NCBI RefSeq assembly: GCF_045679555.1
Contig: NC_092122.1
Coordinates: 13,567,043 to 13,631,042, forward strand
Reading direction: 5' to 3'
Source: Salvelinus alpinus
Lineage: Eukaryota; Chordata; Actinopteri; Salmoniformes; Salmonidae
DNA length: 64,000 nt
Shown here piece by piece: positions 4,073 through 63,399 of this stretch; within the stretch, counting starts at the first letter, position 1, and the number at the start of each line of letters is the position of its first letter. Under the pieces are notes generated by a model. The model saw only the letters and a program-made list of their open reading frames with translations. It was not told the origin of the DNA and did no database searches. The translations under genes were made by a program, and so were the position numbers.

Positions 4073-5644
4073 CAGTGGGGAGAACAAGTATTTGATACAC
4101 TGCCGATTTTGCAGGTTTTACTACTTACAAAGCATGTAGAGGTCTGTAATTGTTATCATAGGTACACTTCAACTGTGAGAGACGGAATCTAAAACAAAAA
4201 TCCAGAAAATCACATTGTATGATTTTTAAGTAATTAATTTGCATTTTATTGCATGACATAAGTATTTGATACATCAGAAAAGCAGAACTTCATATTTGGT
4301 ACAGAAACCTTGGTTTGCAATTACAGAGATCATACGTTTCCTGTAGTTCTTGACCAGGTTTGCACACACTGCAGCAGGGTTTTTTGGCCCACTCCTCCAT
4401 ACAGACCTTCTCCAGATCCTTTAGGTTTCGGGGCTGTCGCTGGGCAATATGGACTATCAGCTCACTCCAAAGATTTTCTATTGGGTTCAGGTCTGGAGAC
4501 TGGCTAGGCCACTCCAGGACCTTGAGATGCTTCTTACGGAGCCACTCCTTAGTTGCCCTGGCTGTATGTTTCGGGTCGTTGTCATGCTGGAAGACCCAGT
4601 CACGACCCATCTTCAATCCTCTTACTGAGGGAAGGAGGTTGTTGGCCAAGATCTTGCGATACATGGCCCCATCCATCCTCCCCTCAATACGGTGCAGTCG
4701 TCCTGTCCCCTTTGCAGAAAAGCATCCCCAGAGAATGCTGTTTCTACCTCCATGCTTCACGGTTGGGATGGTGTTCTTGGGGTTGTACTCATCCTTCTTC
4801 TTCCTCCAAACAGGGCGAGTGGAGTTTAGACCAAAAAGCTCTATTTTTGTCTCATCAGACCACATGACCTTCTCCCATTCCTCCTCTGGATCATCCAGAT
4901 GGTCATTGGCAAACTTCAGACGGGCCTGGACATGCGCTGGCTTGAGCAGGGGGACCTTGCATGCGCTGCAGGATTTTAATCCATGACGGCGTAGTGTGTT
5001 ACTAATGGTTTTCTTTGAGACTGTGGTCCCAGCTCTCTTCAGGTCATTGACCAGGTCCTGCCGTGTAGTTCTGGGCTGATCCCTCACCTTCCTCATGATC
5101 ATTGATGCCCCACGAGGTGAGATCTTGCATGGAGCCCCAGACCGAGGGTGATTGACTGTCATCTTCAACTTCTTCCATTTTCTAATAATTGCGCCAACAG
5201 TTGTTGCCTTCTCACCAAGCTGCTTGCCTATTGTCCTGTAGCCCATCCCAGCCTTGTGCAGGTCTACAATTTTATCCCTGATGTCCTTACACAGCTCTCT
5301 GGTCTTGGCCATTGTGGAGAGGTTGGAGACTGTTTGATTGAGTGTGTGGACAGGTGTCTTTTATACAGGTAACGAGTTCAAACAGGTGCAGTTAATACAG
5401 GTAATGAGTGGAGAACAGGAGGGCTTCTTAAAGAAAAACTAACAGGTCTGTGAGAGCCGGAATTCTTACTGGTTGGTAGGTGATCAAATACTTATGTCAT
5501 TCAATAAAATGCAAATGAATTACTTAAAAATCATACAATGTGATTTTCTGGATTTTTGTGATACAAATTACAGACCTCTACATGCTTTGTAAGTAGGAAA
5601 ACCTGCAAAATCAGCAGTGTATCAAATACTTGTTCTCCCCACTG
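4073..5644 (-). mobile_element. Tc1-like transposon, near full length
   Basis: A 1572-bp element flanked by TA (4071-4072 and 5645-5646). Terminal inverted repeats begin CAGTGGGGAGAACAAGTATT and stay recognisable for about 200 bp. The right repeat lacks about 44 bp present on the left, just inside TCTGTAATT. A single transposase gene on the minus strand fills most of the interior. The repeats match closely, which suggests a fairly recent insertion for this window. Confidence 0.95.
4290..5312 (-). CDS. Tc1-like transposase (DD34E), C-terminus frameshifted
   Basis: A cut-and-paste transposase that would bind the element's inverted repeats and integrate at TA. The 340-residue frame starts at [10 protein letters not shown]. 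An N-terminal paired-like helix-turn-helix region (about 1-110) contains [11 protein letters not shown]. The catalytic domain shows Asp in [12 protein letters not shown], Asp in [11 protein letters not shown], and Glu in [11 protein letters not shown] with 34 residues between the last two, so the DD34E triad is complete. After EEWAKKP the frame leaves the family pattern: the expected ending is encoded in the next frame across an A-run followed by CCC near 4380. One extra base appears to have frameshifted the last ~37 residues. The catalytic core is intact, and activity of this copy is uncertain. Confidence 0.9.
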
Positions 5645-15097: not shown

Positions 15098-15606
15098 TAT
15101 CTAGAGCTTTGTATACATCTCTGTGTGTAGAGTAGAGGTGATCTAGAGCTTTGTATGCATCTCTGTGTGTAGAGTAGAGGTGATCTAGAGCTTTGTATAC
15201 ATCTCTGTGTGTAGAGTAGAGGTGATCTAGAGCTTTGTATGCATCTCTGTGTGTAGAGTAGAGGTGATCTAGAGCTTTGTATACATCTCTGTGTGTAGAG
15301 TAGAGGTGATCTAGAGCTTTGTATGCATCTCTGTGTGTAGAGTAGAGGTGATCTAGAGCTTTGTATGCATCTCTGTGTGTAGAGTAGAGGTGATCTAGAG
15401 CTTTGTATGCATCTCTATGTGTAGAGTAGAGGTGATCTAGAGCTTTGTATGCATCTCTATGTGTAGAGTAGAGGTGATCTAGAGCTTTGTATACATCTCT
15501 GTGTGTAGAGTAGAGGTGATCTAGAGCTTTGTATACATCTCTGTGTGTAGCGTAGAGGTGATCTAGAGCTTTGTATACATCTCTGTGTGTAGCGTAGAGG
15601 TGATCT
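15098..15606. repeat. 42-bp minisatellite, 12 copies
   Basis: Twelve near-identical 42-bp units, each containing GATCTAGAGCTTTGTATACA and TCTCTGTGTGTAGAG. Variants are mostly TATAC/TATGC, TGTGT/ATGTG and AGAGT/AGCGT. Since 42 is divisible by three, the minus strand stays open as a 14-residue repeat (DHLYSTHRDVYKAL type). Nothing else suggests a gene. Confidence 0.95.
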
Positions 15607-15984
15607 TGAGTTTGTACAGAAAAAACAGTTCGATTTGTATTTTCCATTTCCTTGTTCAGCTACAACTAGGTGAAACATAGGATATTACAGTTCTTCAGAT
15701 CACATTGATAGGATAGGCTCGAATGGAGCTCATCCAGTTTATTTTCCAGTGATTGCAATAGAACGCCAATAGAACGGAGGGTAATGGCAACTTATCTACT
15801 CGCCCTCGCAGTCTCGTTAGATATCCCGCACGCCGACCCCTATAGCGCCGACTCCAGACTCCACAGGGATTTGGGCCTGGTCTGGGATGAGCATTATGTC
15901 CTTCGCCTCTGATTTGTTGAAATAATCCTCATCCAAATCGCTGTTTTGTTGTCCAGAAGCTCTTTTCGGTCATATGAAACAATG

Positions 15985-21604: not shown

Positions 21605-50471
<28,867 letters not shown>

Positions 50472-55750: not shown

Positions 55751-56202
55751 TCATAGAACGTTGGGCAGATAGAGGGAGCAGAGTAGCATATTCTGGCCCA
55801 GCGCGGGGAAGCGTCTGAAGGCCTCCCAGGCGTCTGAAAAGATGTTGTACTTGAGGAATACGCGGTGCTCCAGGCTGGTGGGCAGGCTGACGTCGCGCGA
55901 CATAATATAGACGCCGTCGTTGTGCAGCGTGCACGTGAGGTTCAGGCCCGACTTGGAGGTGTTGTCCTTCAGGTGGAGCCACTCCCCGGTGGTCACGTTG
56001 TAAGACTGCACCGTCAGCATGTCCTCCGTCTGGCTGGCCCGTCGCCCCGGACCCGGCTCCAGCTCGTGGGTGTACCCCCCCACCAGGTAGATGGTATCTT
56101 CCACCGAGAGCATCTGCTGCTTACGCACGTGGGCCGAGCAGGAGCGGAACACTGTCCAACTGTCAGAGGTGGGGCAGTAGCGGAGTACGCTGGTATTCCT
56201 GT
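55751..56202 (-). CDS. KLHL42: KLHL42 exon 3 and stop
   Basis: Acceptor ending TAG at 56203-56205. It encodes DRNTSVLRYCPTSDSWTVF, then VRKQQMLSVEDTIYLVGGY and TSKSGLNLTC, and the ending EAFRRFPALGQNMLLCSLYL followed by PNVL and the stop at 55753-55751. The last kelch blades are complete. Confidence 0.95.
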
Positions 56203-57497
56203 CTAGTAGATACAGAGAGAAAAAAAAACAGCATTTGTTAAAATAATTTAAGAACCAGTTGATATTTTGTCAAATGAACAAGCACTATTTGTGTAGCCTA
56301 CAGTTCTTTATGTCTACTGTGTGTATACATTGGGCATTTTAGAAAATGTTCTCACTTCTGCTGGGAATGAAAATCACCCCCACTAACCTCTGGCAGTATA
56401 TCCTCCCATGACGTAGATCATGCCCTGGCACTCGCAGGCAGAGAACTCTGCCAGGGGGTCGGGTAGTGACGACACACAGGTCCACCAGTCCTGCTCAGGG
56501 CTGTAGCACTCCACAGTGCCCTGACACTGGCCTCCCACTGCATACAGCTTCCCTCGTACCGCCAGCAGCTTGAAGTTGGACCTGACCGGAGGAGAGACGG
56601 ATATACAACAACATTACAGGATGGAGACATACTGTAGCCTATGTAGTTTGCTGGCTCAGCATCAAAACAGATTGAAGATCAAGACTGGGACAGACTGCAT
56701 AGAGATCTATTCACATAGCTGACCTGTACTGACCTCTTCTGGTTCAGGGGGGCTACCTGGTTCCATTCATTTCTACAGGGGTTGTAGCAGTGTGCCGCTG
56801 AGATCTCCTGGCTGGTCATTCTGTACCCACCGACAATGAACAGGTAGTTGTCCAACATGGCTGAGCCGTAGCCTCTCACATTGACCATGTCAGAGGGCAG
56901 GTTGTTAGCGAGCGGCTTCCAGCGCTGCTCCACTTCCCCATATCTCAGCATTGACCAGGGCTCGTCCTGGTCTGGTAGGTCCAGAGCCAGACAGGTGAAG
57001 AGTCCGATAGCCACCAGAGTGGCCGTGCCTTTCATACGCATCTCTCTAACCTGGTTGCGCAGGGCAGCTGGTAAGTCGCTGAACTCTGGTCTCCGCAGCA
57101 TCGGGTGGTAGTGACAGCTCATATATCTGAGACAAGCGTTGCGTAGATCATGAGTTCCATATACCTCAGATAGGCTGTATAGTTCCACACAATTCTCTTG
57201 TCGAATTTCAGACGAAAGGAGTTTTAGGATAGAGGTGACTTGCAAAAAAGATGCAGTCTCAATCAGGTCTTCCAGGGTCTCGTTGACTACTTTCACTTTG
57301 GAGGTGTTGATAAACTCCAGGACCAGCTCGAGCCCTGGCACACTCAGCCCCTGCAGTTGCACTGAATCCTCTCTGGACTCGCGCATCCCAGAGCTGTACA
57401 GTGCACGGAAGTAGTCACTTTTTTCTATCAACTTGCCTTTGTTGACGTTGTACGTTTTGTCATCCATGACAATTACGATTATTTGTTCGGATGACAT
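55751..57497 (-). CDS. KLHL42: KLHL42, three exons (whole span)
   Basis: KLHL42 (KLHDC5) is a BTB-kelch substrate adaptor of the CUL3 ubiquitin ligase. In human it targets the microtubule-severing katanin subunit p60 during mitosis. Joining 57497-56734, 56581-56388 and 56202-55751 gives 469 residues against about 505 in human (recalled); the shorter length comes from loss of an acidic insertion in the BTB-BACK region. The start ATG is at 57497-57495 (MSSEQIIVIVMDDKTYNVNK). BTB is about 6-95, BACK-like about 100-180, kelch repeats about 205-465. The kelch part has NYLFIVGGYRMTSQEISAAH, KLYAVGGQ, MIYVMGGYTAR and TIYLVGGYTHE. All junctions are GT-AG with phases 2 and 1. The gene is compact and transposon-free. 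Confidence 0.95.
56388..56581 (-). CDS. KLHL42: KLHL42 exon 2
   Basis: Acceptor CTCCGGTCAG and donor GTTAGT. It encodes SNFKLLAVRGKLYAVGGQ through FSACECQGMIYVMGGYTAR, two kelch repeats, 64 full codons plus split codons at both ends. Confidence 0.93.
56734..57497 (-). CDS. KLHL42: KLHL42 exon 1
   Basis: Residues 1-254 plus two bases, donor GTCAGT. It holds the BTB domain (SDYFRALYSSGMRES, LEDLIETASFLQVTSILKLL), the BACK-like part (CVELYSLSEVYGTHDLRNAC) and the first kelch repeat (VNVRGYGSAMLDNYLFIVGG). Confidence 0.95.
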
Positions 57498-58222
57498 GTT
57501 TAGTGGTTGGGTTAGCTTGATAATGTTGTCAAGTGATCTGTTTTGTTGACTGTCCTCTTCCGGCCTCGATCTGTTAATGACTGCCTGTCAGTTTACATTT
57601 CTCAGGCGCAGGGGTGGTCTGCAACTCTATTCGCACCGCAGTCACCAGGCCTATATATGGTCATGTTCAGCCCATACGTCTGGATGATGCCTGGATCATT
57701 TCAACTCAGTTATGAGTGTGCTAGCTAGCTAGCAAGAGGCTAAGAGTGACTTGGAAATCTAGCTAGCCTCTTTATCTTTCAAAAACAGCGGGTATTATCT
57801 CGACGTACATCCAAAGAAGATGTTTTGCTGGACCATGTGGTAATTTTTAAGATTTATATACTGGATAACACACTTTCTTTGCATTGTCGAGATAATCTGC
57901 AGAAAGCTGCAGTTGGTTTTTGAGGAGAAATTGGCCAGCATATTTCCTGTTTTGATCCTGTGGGTTGCGTCACTTGCTTGCTCAACCGGAAACCACTGCT
58001 TTCTTCTTCGTGTAAAGACAATGCCATGCAGATGGTACAAGATGTGTTGCTGCCACCAGCTGGCTTGGGGTATACTCTACCTGCACTCGACAGGTGCAAG
58101 CCTCCCGTAGTGTATGTTCCAATATTTTGCTTCACCAACTTTTCAGGGAACCAGGTACATTAAAACCAACAGTTTCCAACTATCAACAACATAAACTTGC
58201 AATGAAGTAAGACAGTGTATAG
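57498..58222 (-). promoter_or_regulatory. KLHL42: KLHL42 upstream region
   Basis: Expected promoter and 5' UTR of KLHL42. Mildly CpG-containing near the ATG; no TATA box at a fitting distance. No gene found on the other strand. Confidence 0.4.
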
Positions 58223-58420: not shown

Positions 58421-60148
<1,728 letters not shown>

Positions 60149-60239
60149 ACCGAGGGAAAGTTGGTTTTATATTCACATATTCAGACTTTCATCAGACATT
60201 CAACAGATAATCAACAGACAATCAACAGACATTAGTCAA

Positions 60240-60710
60240 AATCCATTTAAAATTGTAAAAATCAATAACTAATTCATTGATTGTCACAGAAACATAAAAA
60301 TATATATGGTTTATTCTATAAATGCCTAGCATACTTTTACAATATTTGTTTTGAATAAAAATTCCAGTTTTGATTTGATGGAAATAGATAAAATCTTTCA
60401 AATGCAATTTAATGCGGTATAAATCAATAACTAATTCACCGTTTGTCACAGACACATCAAACTTGATATGATTAATTCTATAAATGTCTAGCATACTTTT
60501 ACAACCTTTGTTTTGAGTAAAAATTCCAGTTTTGACTTGTTGGAAATACATAAAATCTATCAAATGCCATTTAAAACTGTATTAATCAATAACTAATTCA
60601 CTGTTTGTCACAGAAACATCAAACTAGATATGATTTATTCTATAAATATCTAGCATACTTTTACAACTTTTGTTTTGAGTAAAAATTCCAGTTTTGATTT
60701 TATAGAGGGC
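60240..60710 (-). repeat. ~162-bp tandem repeat, left arm (3 units)
   Basis: Each unit contains AAATCAATAACTAATTCA, TTTATTCTATAAAT and CTAGCATACTTTTACAA. The last two motifs recur near 60310, 60471 and 60632. The array stops inside a unit near 60705 where foreign sequence begins. Confidence 0.9.
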
Positions 60711-60735
60711 ATGTAGCCTGTCTAGAGGGCGTGTG

Positions 60736-61102
60736 TGTCACGCCCTGACCATAGAGAGCCATTGATTCTCTATGGTGAAGTGGGTCAGGGCGTGACTGGG
60801 GGTGATCTAGTTTATTTATTTCTATGTGGTGTTCTAGTTTATTTTCTATGTTGGTGATTTGTATGATTCCCAATTAGAGGCGGCTGGTAATCGTTGTCTC
60901 TAATTGGGGATCATATTTAAGTAGCTGTTTTTCCCACCTGTGTTTGTGGGATATTATTTTGTGTTTTGTGTTGGTGCTTGTGCACCACTTAGTCACGTTT
61001 TGTTGTTTCTTTATTTGTTTTGTTCTAAGTTTTCACTTTAATAAATAATGTGGAACTCAACATCCGCTGAGCCTTGGTCCATTGCTATACACGACTGTGA
61101 CA
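60736..61102 (+). mobile_element. solo LTR (TG...CA, 5-bp TSD)
   Basis: 367 bp from TGTCACGCCCTGACC to ACTGTGACA, with 5-bp duplication GTGTG (60731-60735 and 61103-61107). AATAAATAATG near 61044 is a likely poly(A) signal. A hairpin (60863-60879 with 60898-60914, 18-base loop) corresponds to the one in the LTR at 35565-35923, so both belong to one family. Confidence 0.85.
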
Positions 61103-61139
61103 GTGTGGTAAAAGTTCTAACGAGTCTGTTATACCCTAT

Positions 61140-62047
61140 TAGAAGGTGCCTGGCATAAAATTCTGCATCTTCAGTCATATTAAATTAGCATCCTTCACTC
61201 ATGCTGCCAAACATACCCTCGTAAAACTGATTATCCTACCGATCCTTGACTTTGGGAATGTCATTTACAAAATAGCCTCCAACACTCTACTCAACAAATT
61301 GGATGCAGTGCCATCCGTTTTGTCACCAAAGCCCCATATACTACCCACCACTGGTTGGCTGGCCCTCGCTTCATATTCGTCTCCAAACCCACTGGCTCCA
61401 GGTCATCTATAAGTCTTTGCTAGGTAAAGCCCCGCCTTATCTCAGCTCACTGGTCACCATAGCAACACCCACCCATAGCATGCGCTCCAGCAAGTATATT
61501 TCACTGGTCACCCCCAAAGCCAATTCCTCTTTTGGCCGCCTTTCCTTCCAGTTCTCTGCTGCCAATGACTGGAACAAATTGCAAAAATCACTGAAGCTGG
61601 AGACTCATATCTCCCTCACTAACTTTAAGCACCAGCTGTCAGAGCAGCTCACAGATCACTGCACCTGTACATAGTCCATCTGTAAATAGCTAATCCAACT
61701 ACCTCTTTCCCAAACTGTCTTATTTTTTTTTGCTCCTTTGCACCCCAGTATCTCTACTTGCACATTCATCTTCTGCACATCTATCACTCCAGTCTCTATC
61801 ACTCCAGTGTTTAATTGCTAAATTGTAATTATTTTGCCACTATGACCTATTTATTGCCTTACCTCCTTTATCTTACCTAATTTGCACACACTGTATATAG
61901 ACTTTTTTCTATTGTGTTATTGACTGTTTGTTTTGTTTATTCCTTGTGTAACTCTGTGTTGTTGTTTGTGTCACACTGCTTTGCTTTATCTTGGCCAGGT
62001 CGCAGAACTTGTTCTCAACTAGCCTACCTTGTTAAATAAAGGTGAAA
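61140..62047 (+). mobile_element. LINE 3' fragment in the fold-back element
   Basis: Encodes the C-terminal end of a fish LINE: ASFTHAAKHTLVKLIILPIL and NTLLNKLDAV. After a frame change come YKSLLGKAPPYLSSLV, SSFGRLSFQFSAANDWNKLQ and a stop near 61674. A 3' UTR follows, ending CTTGTTAAATAAAGGTGAAAT. The RT catalytic part is absent (5' truncation). Confidence 0.88.
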
Positions 62048-62055
62048 TATATTAT

Positions 62056-63290
62056 TTTTTTTTTAAACAAAGGTTGTAAAAGTATGCTAGACATATATAG
62101 AATAAATCATACCGAGTTAGATTTTTCTGTCATAATCAGTGAAAACGTTATTGATATATATTGGTTTAAATGGCATTTTATAGATGTTATATATTTCTAT
62201 CAAATCAGAACTGGAATGTTTACTCAAAATTAAAGGTTGTAAAAGTATGCTAGACATTTATAGAATAAATCATACCTAGCTTGATGTCTCTGTGACAAAC
62301 GTGATTTAGTTAATGATTTATACCGCATTCAATTACATTTTATAGATGTTATGTATCTATCAAATCAGAACTGGAAATGTTTACTCAAAATAAAAGGTTG
62401 TAAAAGTATGCTAGACATTTATAGAATAAATCATACCTAGCTTGATGATTCTGTGACAAACGGAGAACTAGTTATTGATTTATACCACTTTAAATAGCAT
62501 TTTATAGATTTGATGTATGTCTATGAAATTAAAATCGGAATTTGTATTCAAAACAAAGGTTGTAAAAGTATGCTAGACATTTATAGAATAAATCATACCC
62601 AGGTTGAGGTTTCTGTGACAAACGTGAATTAGTTATTGATTTATACCACTTTAAATTGCATTTTATAGATTAGATTTTTTTTCTATCAAATCAAAACTGT
62701 AATTCTTCCTAAAAAAAAGATTGGAAAAGTATACTAGACATTTATAGAATAAATCATACCTAGTTCGATTTTTCTGTCATAAATCAGTGAAAACGTTATT
62801 GATTTGTACCGCTTTAAAAGGCATTTTATAGATGTTATGTATTTCTATCAAATCAGAACTGGAATGTTTACTCAAAGCAAAGGTTGTAAAAGTATACTAG
62901 ACATTTATAGAATAAATCATACCTAGTCTGAAGATTCTGTCATAATCAGTGAAAACGTTATGGATTTATATATTGGTTTAAAAGGCATTTTATAGATGTT
63001 ATGTATCTATCAAATCAGAACTGGAATGTTTACTCAAAGCAAAGGTTGTAAAATTATACTAGACATTTATAGAATAAATCATACCTAGTTTGATGATTTT
63101 GTGGCAAACGGTGAATTAGTTATTGATTTATACCGCTTTAAATTGCATGTTGTAGATTTGATGTATTTCTATAAAATCAAAACTGAAATATGTATTCAAA
63201 ACAAAGGTTGTAAAAGCATGCTGGACATTTATAGAATAAATCACATCTAGTTGGATGATTATTTGACAAACGGTTAATTAGTTATTGATT
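62056..63290 (+). repeat. ~162-bp tandem repeat, right arm (8 units)
   Basis: Units carry AAAGGTTGTAAAAGTATGCT, AGACATTTATAGAATAAATC and TTGATTTATACC. Repeats of the first motif start near 62072, 62233, 62394, 62557, 62720, 62882, 63043 and 63206, a period of 160-163 bp. Units differ from each other at roughly 10-20% of positions by eye. Confidence 0.93.
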
Positions 63291-63399
63291 TTTAAATTTG
63301 TAAATGGATTTTGGTGAATGTCTGTTGATTGTCTGATGAATGGCTGTTGAATGTCCGAATGTGTGAATATAAAACCAACTTCACCTCGGTATCAATTAG

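Follow-up and report, generated by a model that had tools for sequence, protein, structure and literature searches.

Near one end of a 64,000-nucleotide stretch of the Salvelinus alpinus genome (hereafter the window; contig coordinates G000:C37:13567043-13631042 in a 2.37-Gb genome assembly), two arrays of a ~162-bp tandem repeat face each other in opposite orientation. Are these arrays the arms of a single transposon, or are they satellite DNA that came to lie this way by other means? And if they belong to a transposon, how did the two arms come to contain such different numbers of repeats?

Layout of the element and its copies in the genome

The tips of the putative element are inverted copies of each other that align with a local score of 107. 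None of 1000 shuffled pairs scored above 34, and among up to 3000 pairs of inverted 100-mers drawn at random from the window none exceeded 73 (99.9% point, 33). In both arms, a run of ~11-bp CAACAGACATT-type repeats sits between the tip and the ~162-bp units, of which there are three on the left and eight on the right (the innermost of these being partial), with the right arm inverted (Table 1). TRF gave a period of 162 for both arms, and the units are A+T rich (73%); no similarity between the unit and the tip domain was detected (500 shuffles). A sequence-only reading had described a fold-back element at 60149..63391 with inverted tips, three plus eight units and the same short repeats in both arms, and each of these features was borne out, except that the right end of the element moves to 63390 when its boundaries are set by the 9-bp duplication seen at other copies (see below). 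The long composite terminal inverted repeats, made up largely of tandem repeats, are those of a fold-back element. Two other features of the window were recorded: pieces of a BTB-Kelch gene with a KLHL33-type BTB match (55754-57587, minus strand) adjoin the element, and a 42-bp tandem repeat is present in 12.4 copies with 97% matches at 15099-15616.

Table 1. Features of the fold-back element in the window (window positions)
Feature	Position	Strand	Remark
Whole element	60149-63390		ends set from 9-bp duplication of other copies
Left target-site duplication	60140-60148	.	GTCAATTAG, 9 bp
Left tip and ~11-bp repeats	60149-60231	+	tip ACCGAGGGAAAGTTGGTTTTATATTCACA; CAACAGACATT-type repeats
Left arm ("B" arm)	60232-60705	+	inner edge near unit position 152, also seen in several further copies
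Left-arm units	L1 60232-60392; L2 60393-60555; L3 60556-60705	+	
Family core remnant, part one	60702-60735	+	continuous with 61108-61188 in copies without the LTR
5-bp duplication of nested LTR	60731-60735; second copy 61103-61107	.	GTGTG
Nested solo LTR	60736-61102	+	367 bp, TGTCACG...CTGTGACA
Family core remnant, part two	61108-61188	+	
Nested dispersed repeat, LINE-like 3' end	61189-62064	+	61192-62048 is 82.5% like L040:7248-8127
Right arm ("A" arm)	62065-63317	-	R8 (62065-62184, partial) to R1 (63156-63317)
Right tip and ~11-bp repeats	63318-63390	-	
Right target-site duplication	63391-63399	.	ATCAATTAG, 8/9 equal to left

To look for other copies, the genome was searched with the tips, as the sequence-only reading had proposed. 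A 96-base tip query gave at least 58 matches at different places (40 of 105 candidates scored) and a second tip query at least 44 (40 of 140 candidates scored); several matches may belong to one tip, owing to the 11-bp repeats. Among the 20 loci fetched first, 12 contain two inverted tips and ~162-bp units in both arms, as laid out by nhmmer (L031-L036, L038, L039, L042, L044, L045 and L050). One of these, L036, resembles a duplicate of L035, with an identical layout and 99.4% likeness beside one tip. The remaining eight (L037, L040, L041, L043 and L046-L049) showed only one tip within the fetched stretch, which counts against the pattern. Five copies were added later: both tips are present in L053 and L057, and one tip is present in L054 and L055 (3-kb stretches) and in L056. 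The smallest layout is that of L057, a 1000-bp copy with hardly any core, in which arms of 3 + 3 unit matches (one of the six covering fewer than 90 model positions) nearly touch. Ten family tips, in both orientations, lie within ~1.15 Mb at G000:C10:72.2-73.3 Mb, and two loci from this region, L041 and L042, are 96% alike; the usable rows in the comparison of flanks beside tips were L001/L002, L027/L028, L029/L030 (plus-strand) and L041/L042. Searches of viral contigs with the unit pattern, of prokaryote genomes with the tip pattern and of paper text with short strings from the element gave no match.

In many copies the two arms differ in their inner edge, which lies at unit position ~61 in one arm and, in the other, at ~152, beyond which comes a 115-bp core segment. 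This segment is present without gaps at four places (on C1, C18, C7 and C29), its first 100 bases are found at two places on C26, and it is partial or contains small gaps in L032, L039 and L045. In the window the solo LTR, flanked by its GTGTG duplication, interrupts this segment, and the LINE-like 3' end stands in place of the remaining core and of the right arm's inner edge. Its LINE label is provisional, Pfam having given no family. The middle of the window element (60736-62064) is mostly later insertions. A non-LTR retrotransposon, now broken, with pieces of endonuclease and reverse transcriptase, occupies 35156-38537 (minus strand) of the window, and ~35723-35839 is similar to a portion of the nested solo LTR (76% over 121 columns, with a longer alignment that is gapped).

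Units of the arrays and their change after insertion

According to the sequence-only reading, the order of units matches from each tip inward. L1 and R1 have CAAAATCCATTTA in common on the tip side; over whole units, L1 is 81% like R1, 83% like L2 and 86% like L3. Pairing L1 with R1, L2 with R2 and L3 with R3 gave a mean of 82.5%, no better than the 83.0-84.0% obtained with shifts of three to five units, and a tip-inward order was therefore not upheld. Inner units of the window are 84.5% alike between arms and 84.1% alike within arms.

We extended the comparison to 61 units from 12 elements, with A and B arms assigned by hand from their inner edges, leaving out L036, an inward-facing unit of L038 and any unit match that spanned fewer than ~90 model positions. 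Compared across elements, first units from the same arm are 86.3% alike; first units from opposite arms are 85.1% alike, and first versus later units 82.3%; later (inner) units of different elements are 84.9% alike, and units in one arm of one element 83.2%. The positional signal among units is modest. Because likeness within an arm is no higher than likeness between elements, the arms, it seems, are copied whole, without homogenisation of their units.

A distinct inner type of unit (GTTTTCACTGATT) is the last full A-arm unit in L034, L035, L039, L044 and L045, and in the window it occupies right-arm positions 3, 4 and 8 (R3, R4 and R8). R2 and R6 are 92% alike and R4 and R8 88%, and right-arm units four apart average 87.6% and units five apart 88.0%, compared with 79.8-83.6% for other spacings. 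These values suggest that a block was duplicated, which probably brought the right arm to eight units; the size of this block is ambiguous between four and five units because R3 is 83% like R7 and 90% like R8, a result that counts against a simple duplication. Also counted against block duplication are the placement of the inner type at A2 and B4 in L038 and the failure to find it in five of the 12 elements (L031, L032, L033, L042 and L050).

Insertions that are present twice in the genome allow the arrays to be compared in place. The window insertion is also found at a colinear second locus on C11 (L031), where the flanks are 94.5-96.5% alike, and for each of two further window segments, ~6 and ~33 kb distant, the candidates found (two of two scored) included a single other locus, also on C11, in agreeing order and orientation and 84-90% alike. 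This second locus likely stems from an ancient whole-genome duplication; its presence and the size of the genome are both consistent with a salmonid host. The C11 copy has 2 + 2 units (one of each pair incomplete), compared with 3 + 8 in the window, and no match to the LTR, the LINE-like piece or the 115-bp segment was found in it. R1 and R2 correspond to C11 units, the nearest unit to R2 being its C11 counterpart; beyond these two units, the difference may reflect loss on C11 as much as gain in the window. A second pair, L054 and L055 on C1, has common flanks that are 96.1% alike over 1786 columns, tip included, and 92.7% alike over 340 bases beside the tip. In the one arm compared, L054 has one full unit and L055 three, a difference of 320 bp, or two units, with the tip and the ~61 edge present in both; L055 also has ~315 bp extra in its core. 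Since L054 and L055 differ by two units while retaining tip and inner edge, the gain or loss of whole units within an arm after insertion is largely supported. The 11-bp run varies among copies as well, reaching ~32 repeats in L047. The earlier proposal that the arrays expand independently therefore stands as far as change in length after insertion is concerned, and the independence of the two arms is read from unequal counts within single elements (three and eight in the window).

These data also bear on where the arrays came from. The element could have picked them up from a pre-existing satellite, an origin to which we give a small but real chance: the lack of detectable similarity between unit and tip domain fits such a capture, but the positional unit classes are modestly common to independent copies, as expected of an old, built-in part, and no separate long array was seen among the listed matches to the unit (40 of 201 candidates scored). 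In that search, with common words skipped, the listed arrays were all short and the longest was that of the window, a result that does not favour the label "satellite" attached to the unit by the sequence-only reading.

Target site, coding capacity and proposed mechanism

The element is flanked by TCAATTAG, exact at 60141-60148 and 63392-63399 and the sole 8-mer repeated at such a spacing in the window (1 of 60741). To establish the length of the duplication, we compared left and right flanks of 13 insertions, with element ends set by hand at ACCGAGG and CCTCGGT or decayed forms of these (the right end of L034 being degenerate) and with L031 (the same insertion as the window) and L036 (the duplicate of L035) left out. 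Identity is 0.72 at 9 bp (84/117), compared with 0.16-0.32 at 5-8 and 10-13 bp and with 0.29 per position at 9 bp for mismatched flank pairs. Nine of the 13 insertions agree at seven or more of nine positions, as do none of 156 mismatched-pair controls, and in L053 the duplication is exact (ATCATATCC). Counted against a uniform length are L033, with a perfect 8-bp match instead, and L034, L039 and L050, among whose flanks no clear 9-bp duplication was found. Because other copies show a 9-bp duplication, that of the window is read as GTCAATTAG/ATCAATTAG, 9 bp with one mismatch; the exact 8-bp repeat noted earlier is real, but the true length is one base longer.

Dispersed copies with target-site duplications, again as in fold-back elements, show that the element transposes as a whole: the tips and duplications recur together at different sites. 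The sequence-only reading was to be abandoned if other copies lacked common tips or duplications; it survived, in that tips, short repeats, arrays and target duplications recur elsewhere, and one transposon does carry a tandem array in each terminal repeat. The fold-back family is real, dispersed and apparently non-autonomous, and the window element is one copy of it.

The length of the duplication also bears on the enzyme. P elements make an 8-bp duplication, and both hAT and P were considered on the basis of the apparent 8-bp repeat (33/104 across insertions at that length) and dropped, as the 13 insertions show 9 bp. That the family is a fold-back, Galileo-like member of the P superfamily and not of Mutator appears improbable: the long repeats of the Galileo F subfamily do contain tandem units of ~210 bp, in numbers that differ between ends, but Galileo duplications are 7 bp, a length at which identity here is 0.16 (15/91), compared with 0.72 at 9 bp. 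Least credible of all is an ordinary satellite array inverted by rearrangement, with tips and duplication accidental; tandem, A+T-rich (73%) ~162-bp units and the capacity of rearrangement to yield inverted arrays would suit it, but at other sites too the arrays come with tips, short repeats and 9-bp duplications, and the unit arrays among the listed matches are short.

A 9-bp duplication (84/117) is that of the Mutator superfamily (MULE), and because of this length the enzyme is most likely Mutator-like. A full-length copy with a transposase, which the sequence-only reading had hoped to see, was not found among the copies fetched and read, and this counts against the assignment. In the fullest cores (~2.3-2.4 kb, L034 and L044) we found no frame longer than 118 aa. 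Ten core frames gave one Pfam match, a Tc1-type helix-turn-helix in L034, and nine gave none; the nested pieces in the L034 and L044 cores are presumably Tc1-type, a label in line with that one match. Ten further frames gave reverse-transcriptase and Tc1-type matches in L033 and L045, with ALKBH8_N also matching both reverse-transcriptase frames, and a MULE match in L058; five gave none. L033 and L045, which are long, were considered as autonomous copies and rejected, as they hold LINE- and Tc1-type insertions. No MULE match to Pfam was obtained from the tested frames of fold-back copies. Six long MULE frames are present in the genome, perhaps a young or domesticated family; the one read, L058, contains a MULE transposase frame of 740 aa (L058:1305-3527, minus strand) to which CG-1 and SWIM also match weakly, with no related tip in 4.5 kb. 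Two open frames, of 107 and 237 aa, lie inside a fold-back copy at L053:986-1769 and match no Pfam family. The window itself contains, at 4290-5360 (minus strand), a 356-aa Tc1-type transposase frame with no internal stops and Pfam matches to a Sleeping Beauty/Tc3-type helix-turn-helix and DDE.

With considerable confidence, we interpret the window element as a copy, now decayed, of a fold-back family that is non-autonomous, moves as a whole by cut and paste and has arrays that were later altered. Each end is a composite inverted repeat comprising a conserved ~29-bp tip, a variable 11-bp run and a variable row of ~162-bp units, enclosing a core that appears non-coding in the copies read and measures ~2.3 kb where it is fullest. 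The transposase, supplied from elsewhere and, to judge from the 9-bp duplication, most likely Mutator-like, would have cut at the tips; the element was inserted as a whole, and its arrays travelled along. Whole units were then gained or lost within an arm, probably by unequal exchange or slippage between them. The window copy lost most of its core and acquired a LINE-like piece as well as an LTR element, of which a solo LTR is left, and its right arm probably grew to eight units via the duplicated block of four or five units. By analogy with Galileo, the tandem repeats probably serve as extra transposase-binding sites.

Relation to known fold-back elements

Xenopus MITEs are reportedly a case of tandem repeats riding on a vertebrate DNA element and, compared by titles alone (cited in PMC12628747), resemble the window family in this respect. 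Fold-back elements with tandem-repeat arms have been described in insects, nematodes and plants, according to the portions of the published accounts consulted here, to which the following comparisons also refer. Tetris of Drosophila virilis, close in layout to the window family, is a non-autonomous fold-back element in which each terminal repeat consists of a flanking domain followed by ~220-bp A+T-rich units; it makes 8-10 bp duplications, no transposase copy was found, its authors assigned it to Mutator, and two allelic copies differ in unit number (PMC4079207). The window family is likewise non-autonomous, with a flanking domain followed by tandem units in variable number and no transposase copy found, but its unit, tip and host are different. 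Moreover, Tetris units also form long satellite arrays, whereas none were seen among the listed matches to the window-family unit, and Tetris units have 37 bp in common with the flanking domain, whereas no such sequence was detected in the window element.

In Galileo, a member of the P superfamily, elements of the F subfamily differ from one end to the other in their internal tandem units (PMC3573991), and extra transposase-binding sites have been described within its terminal-repeat units (PMC3688188). Galileo resembles the window family in its long terminal repeats with unequal internal tandem units at the two ends, but differs in its 7-bp duplications and in having known transposase-coding copies. 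The terminal repeats of Tm1, a Mutator/Foldback element of root-knot nematodes, are composite and include a variable number of short tandem repeats, and its duplications are most commonly 9 bp, with 45 of 53 elements showing 8-10 bp (PMC3169594). Tm1 is similar to the window family in these composite repeats, short tandem repeats and mostly 9-bp duplications, but its repeats are 13-15 bp, no ~162-bp units are described in the parts of the account consulted, and a putative transposase is known. The window family works like Tetris, Galileo and Tm1, and is a new family of known design.

Among the top matches in the open-access literature, none described a family of this kind in a teleost or salmonid. 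We put forward, tentatively, that this is a fish fold-back family in which 11-bp and ~162-bp arrays stand in series in each terminal repeat and change in length by whole units after insertion, that duplicated blocks of the genome provide paired insertions from which the history of array growth and loss can be traced and dated, and that dispersed satellites could start from such arms. Where a genome of vertebrate size contains duplicated loci, both copies of an insertion can be set side by side, and the growth or shrinkage of arrays becomes visible without new transposition. Such change in the absence of transposition bears on the origin of dispersed satellite-like arrays.
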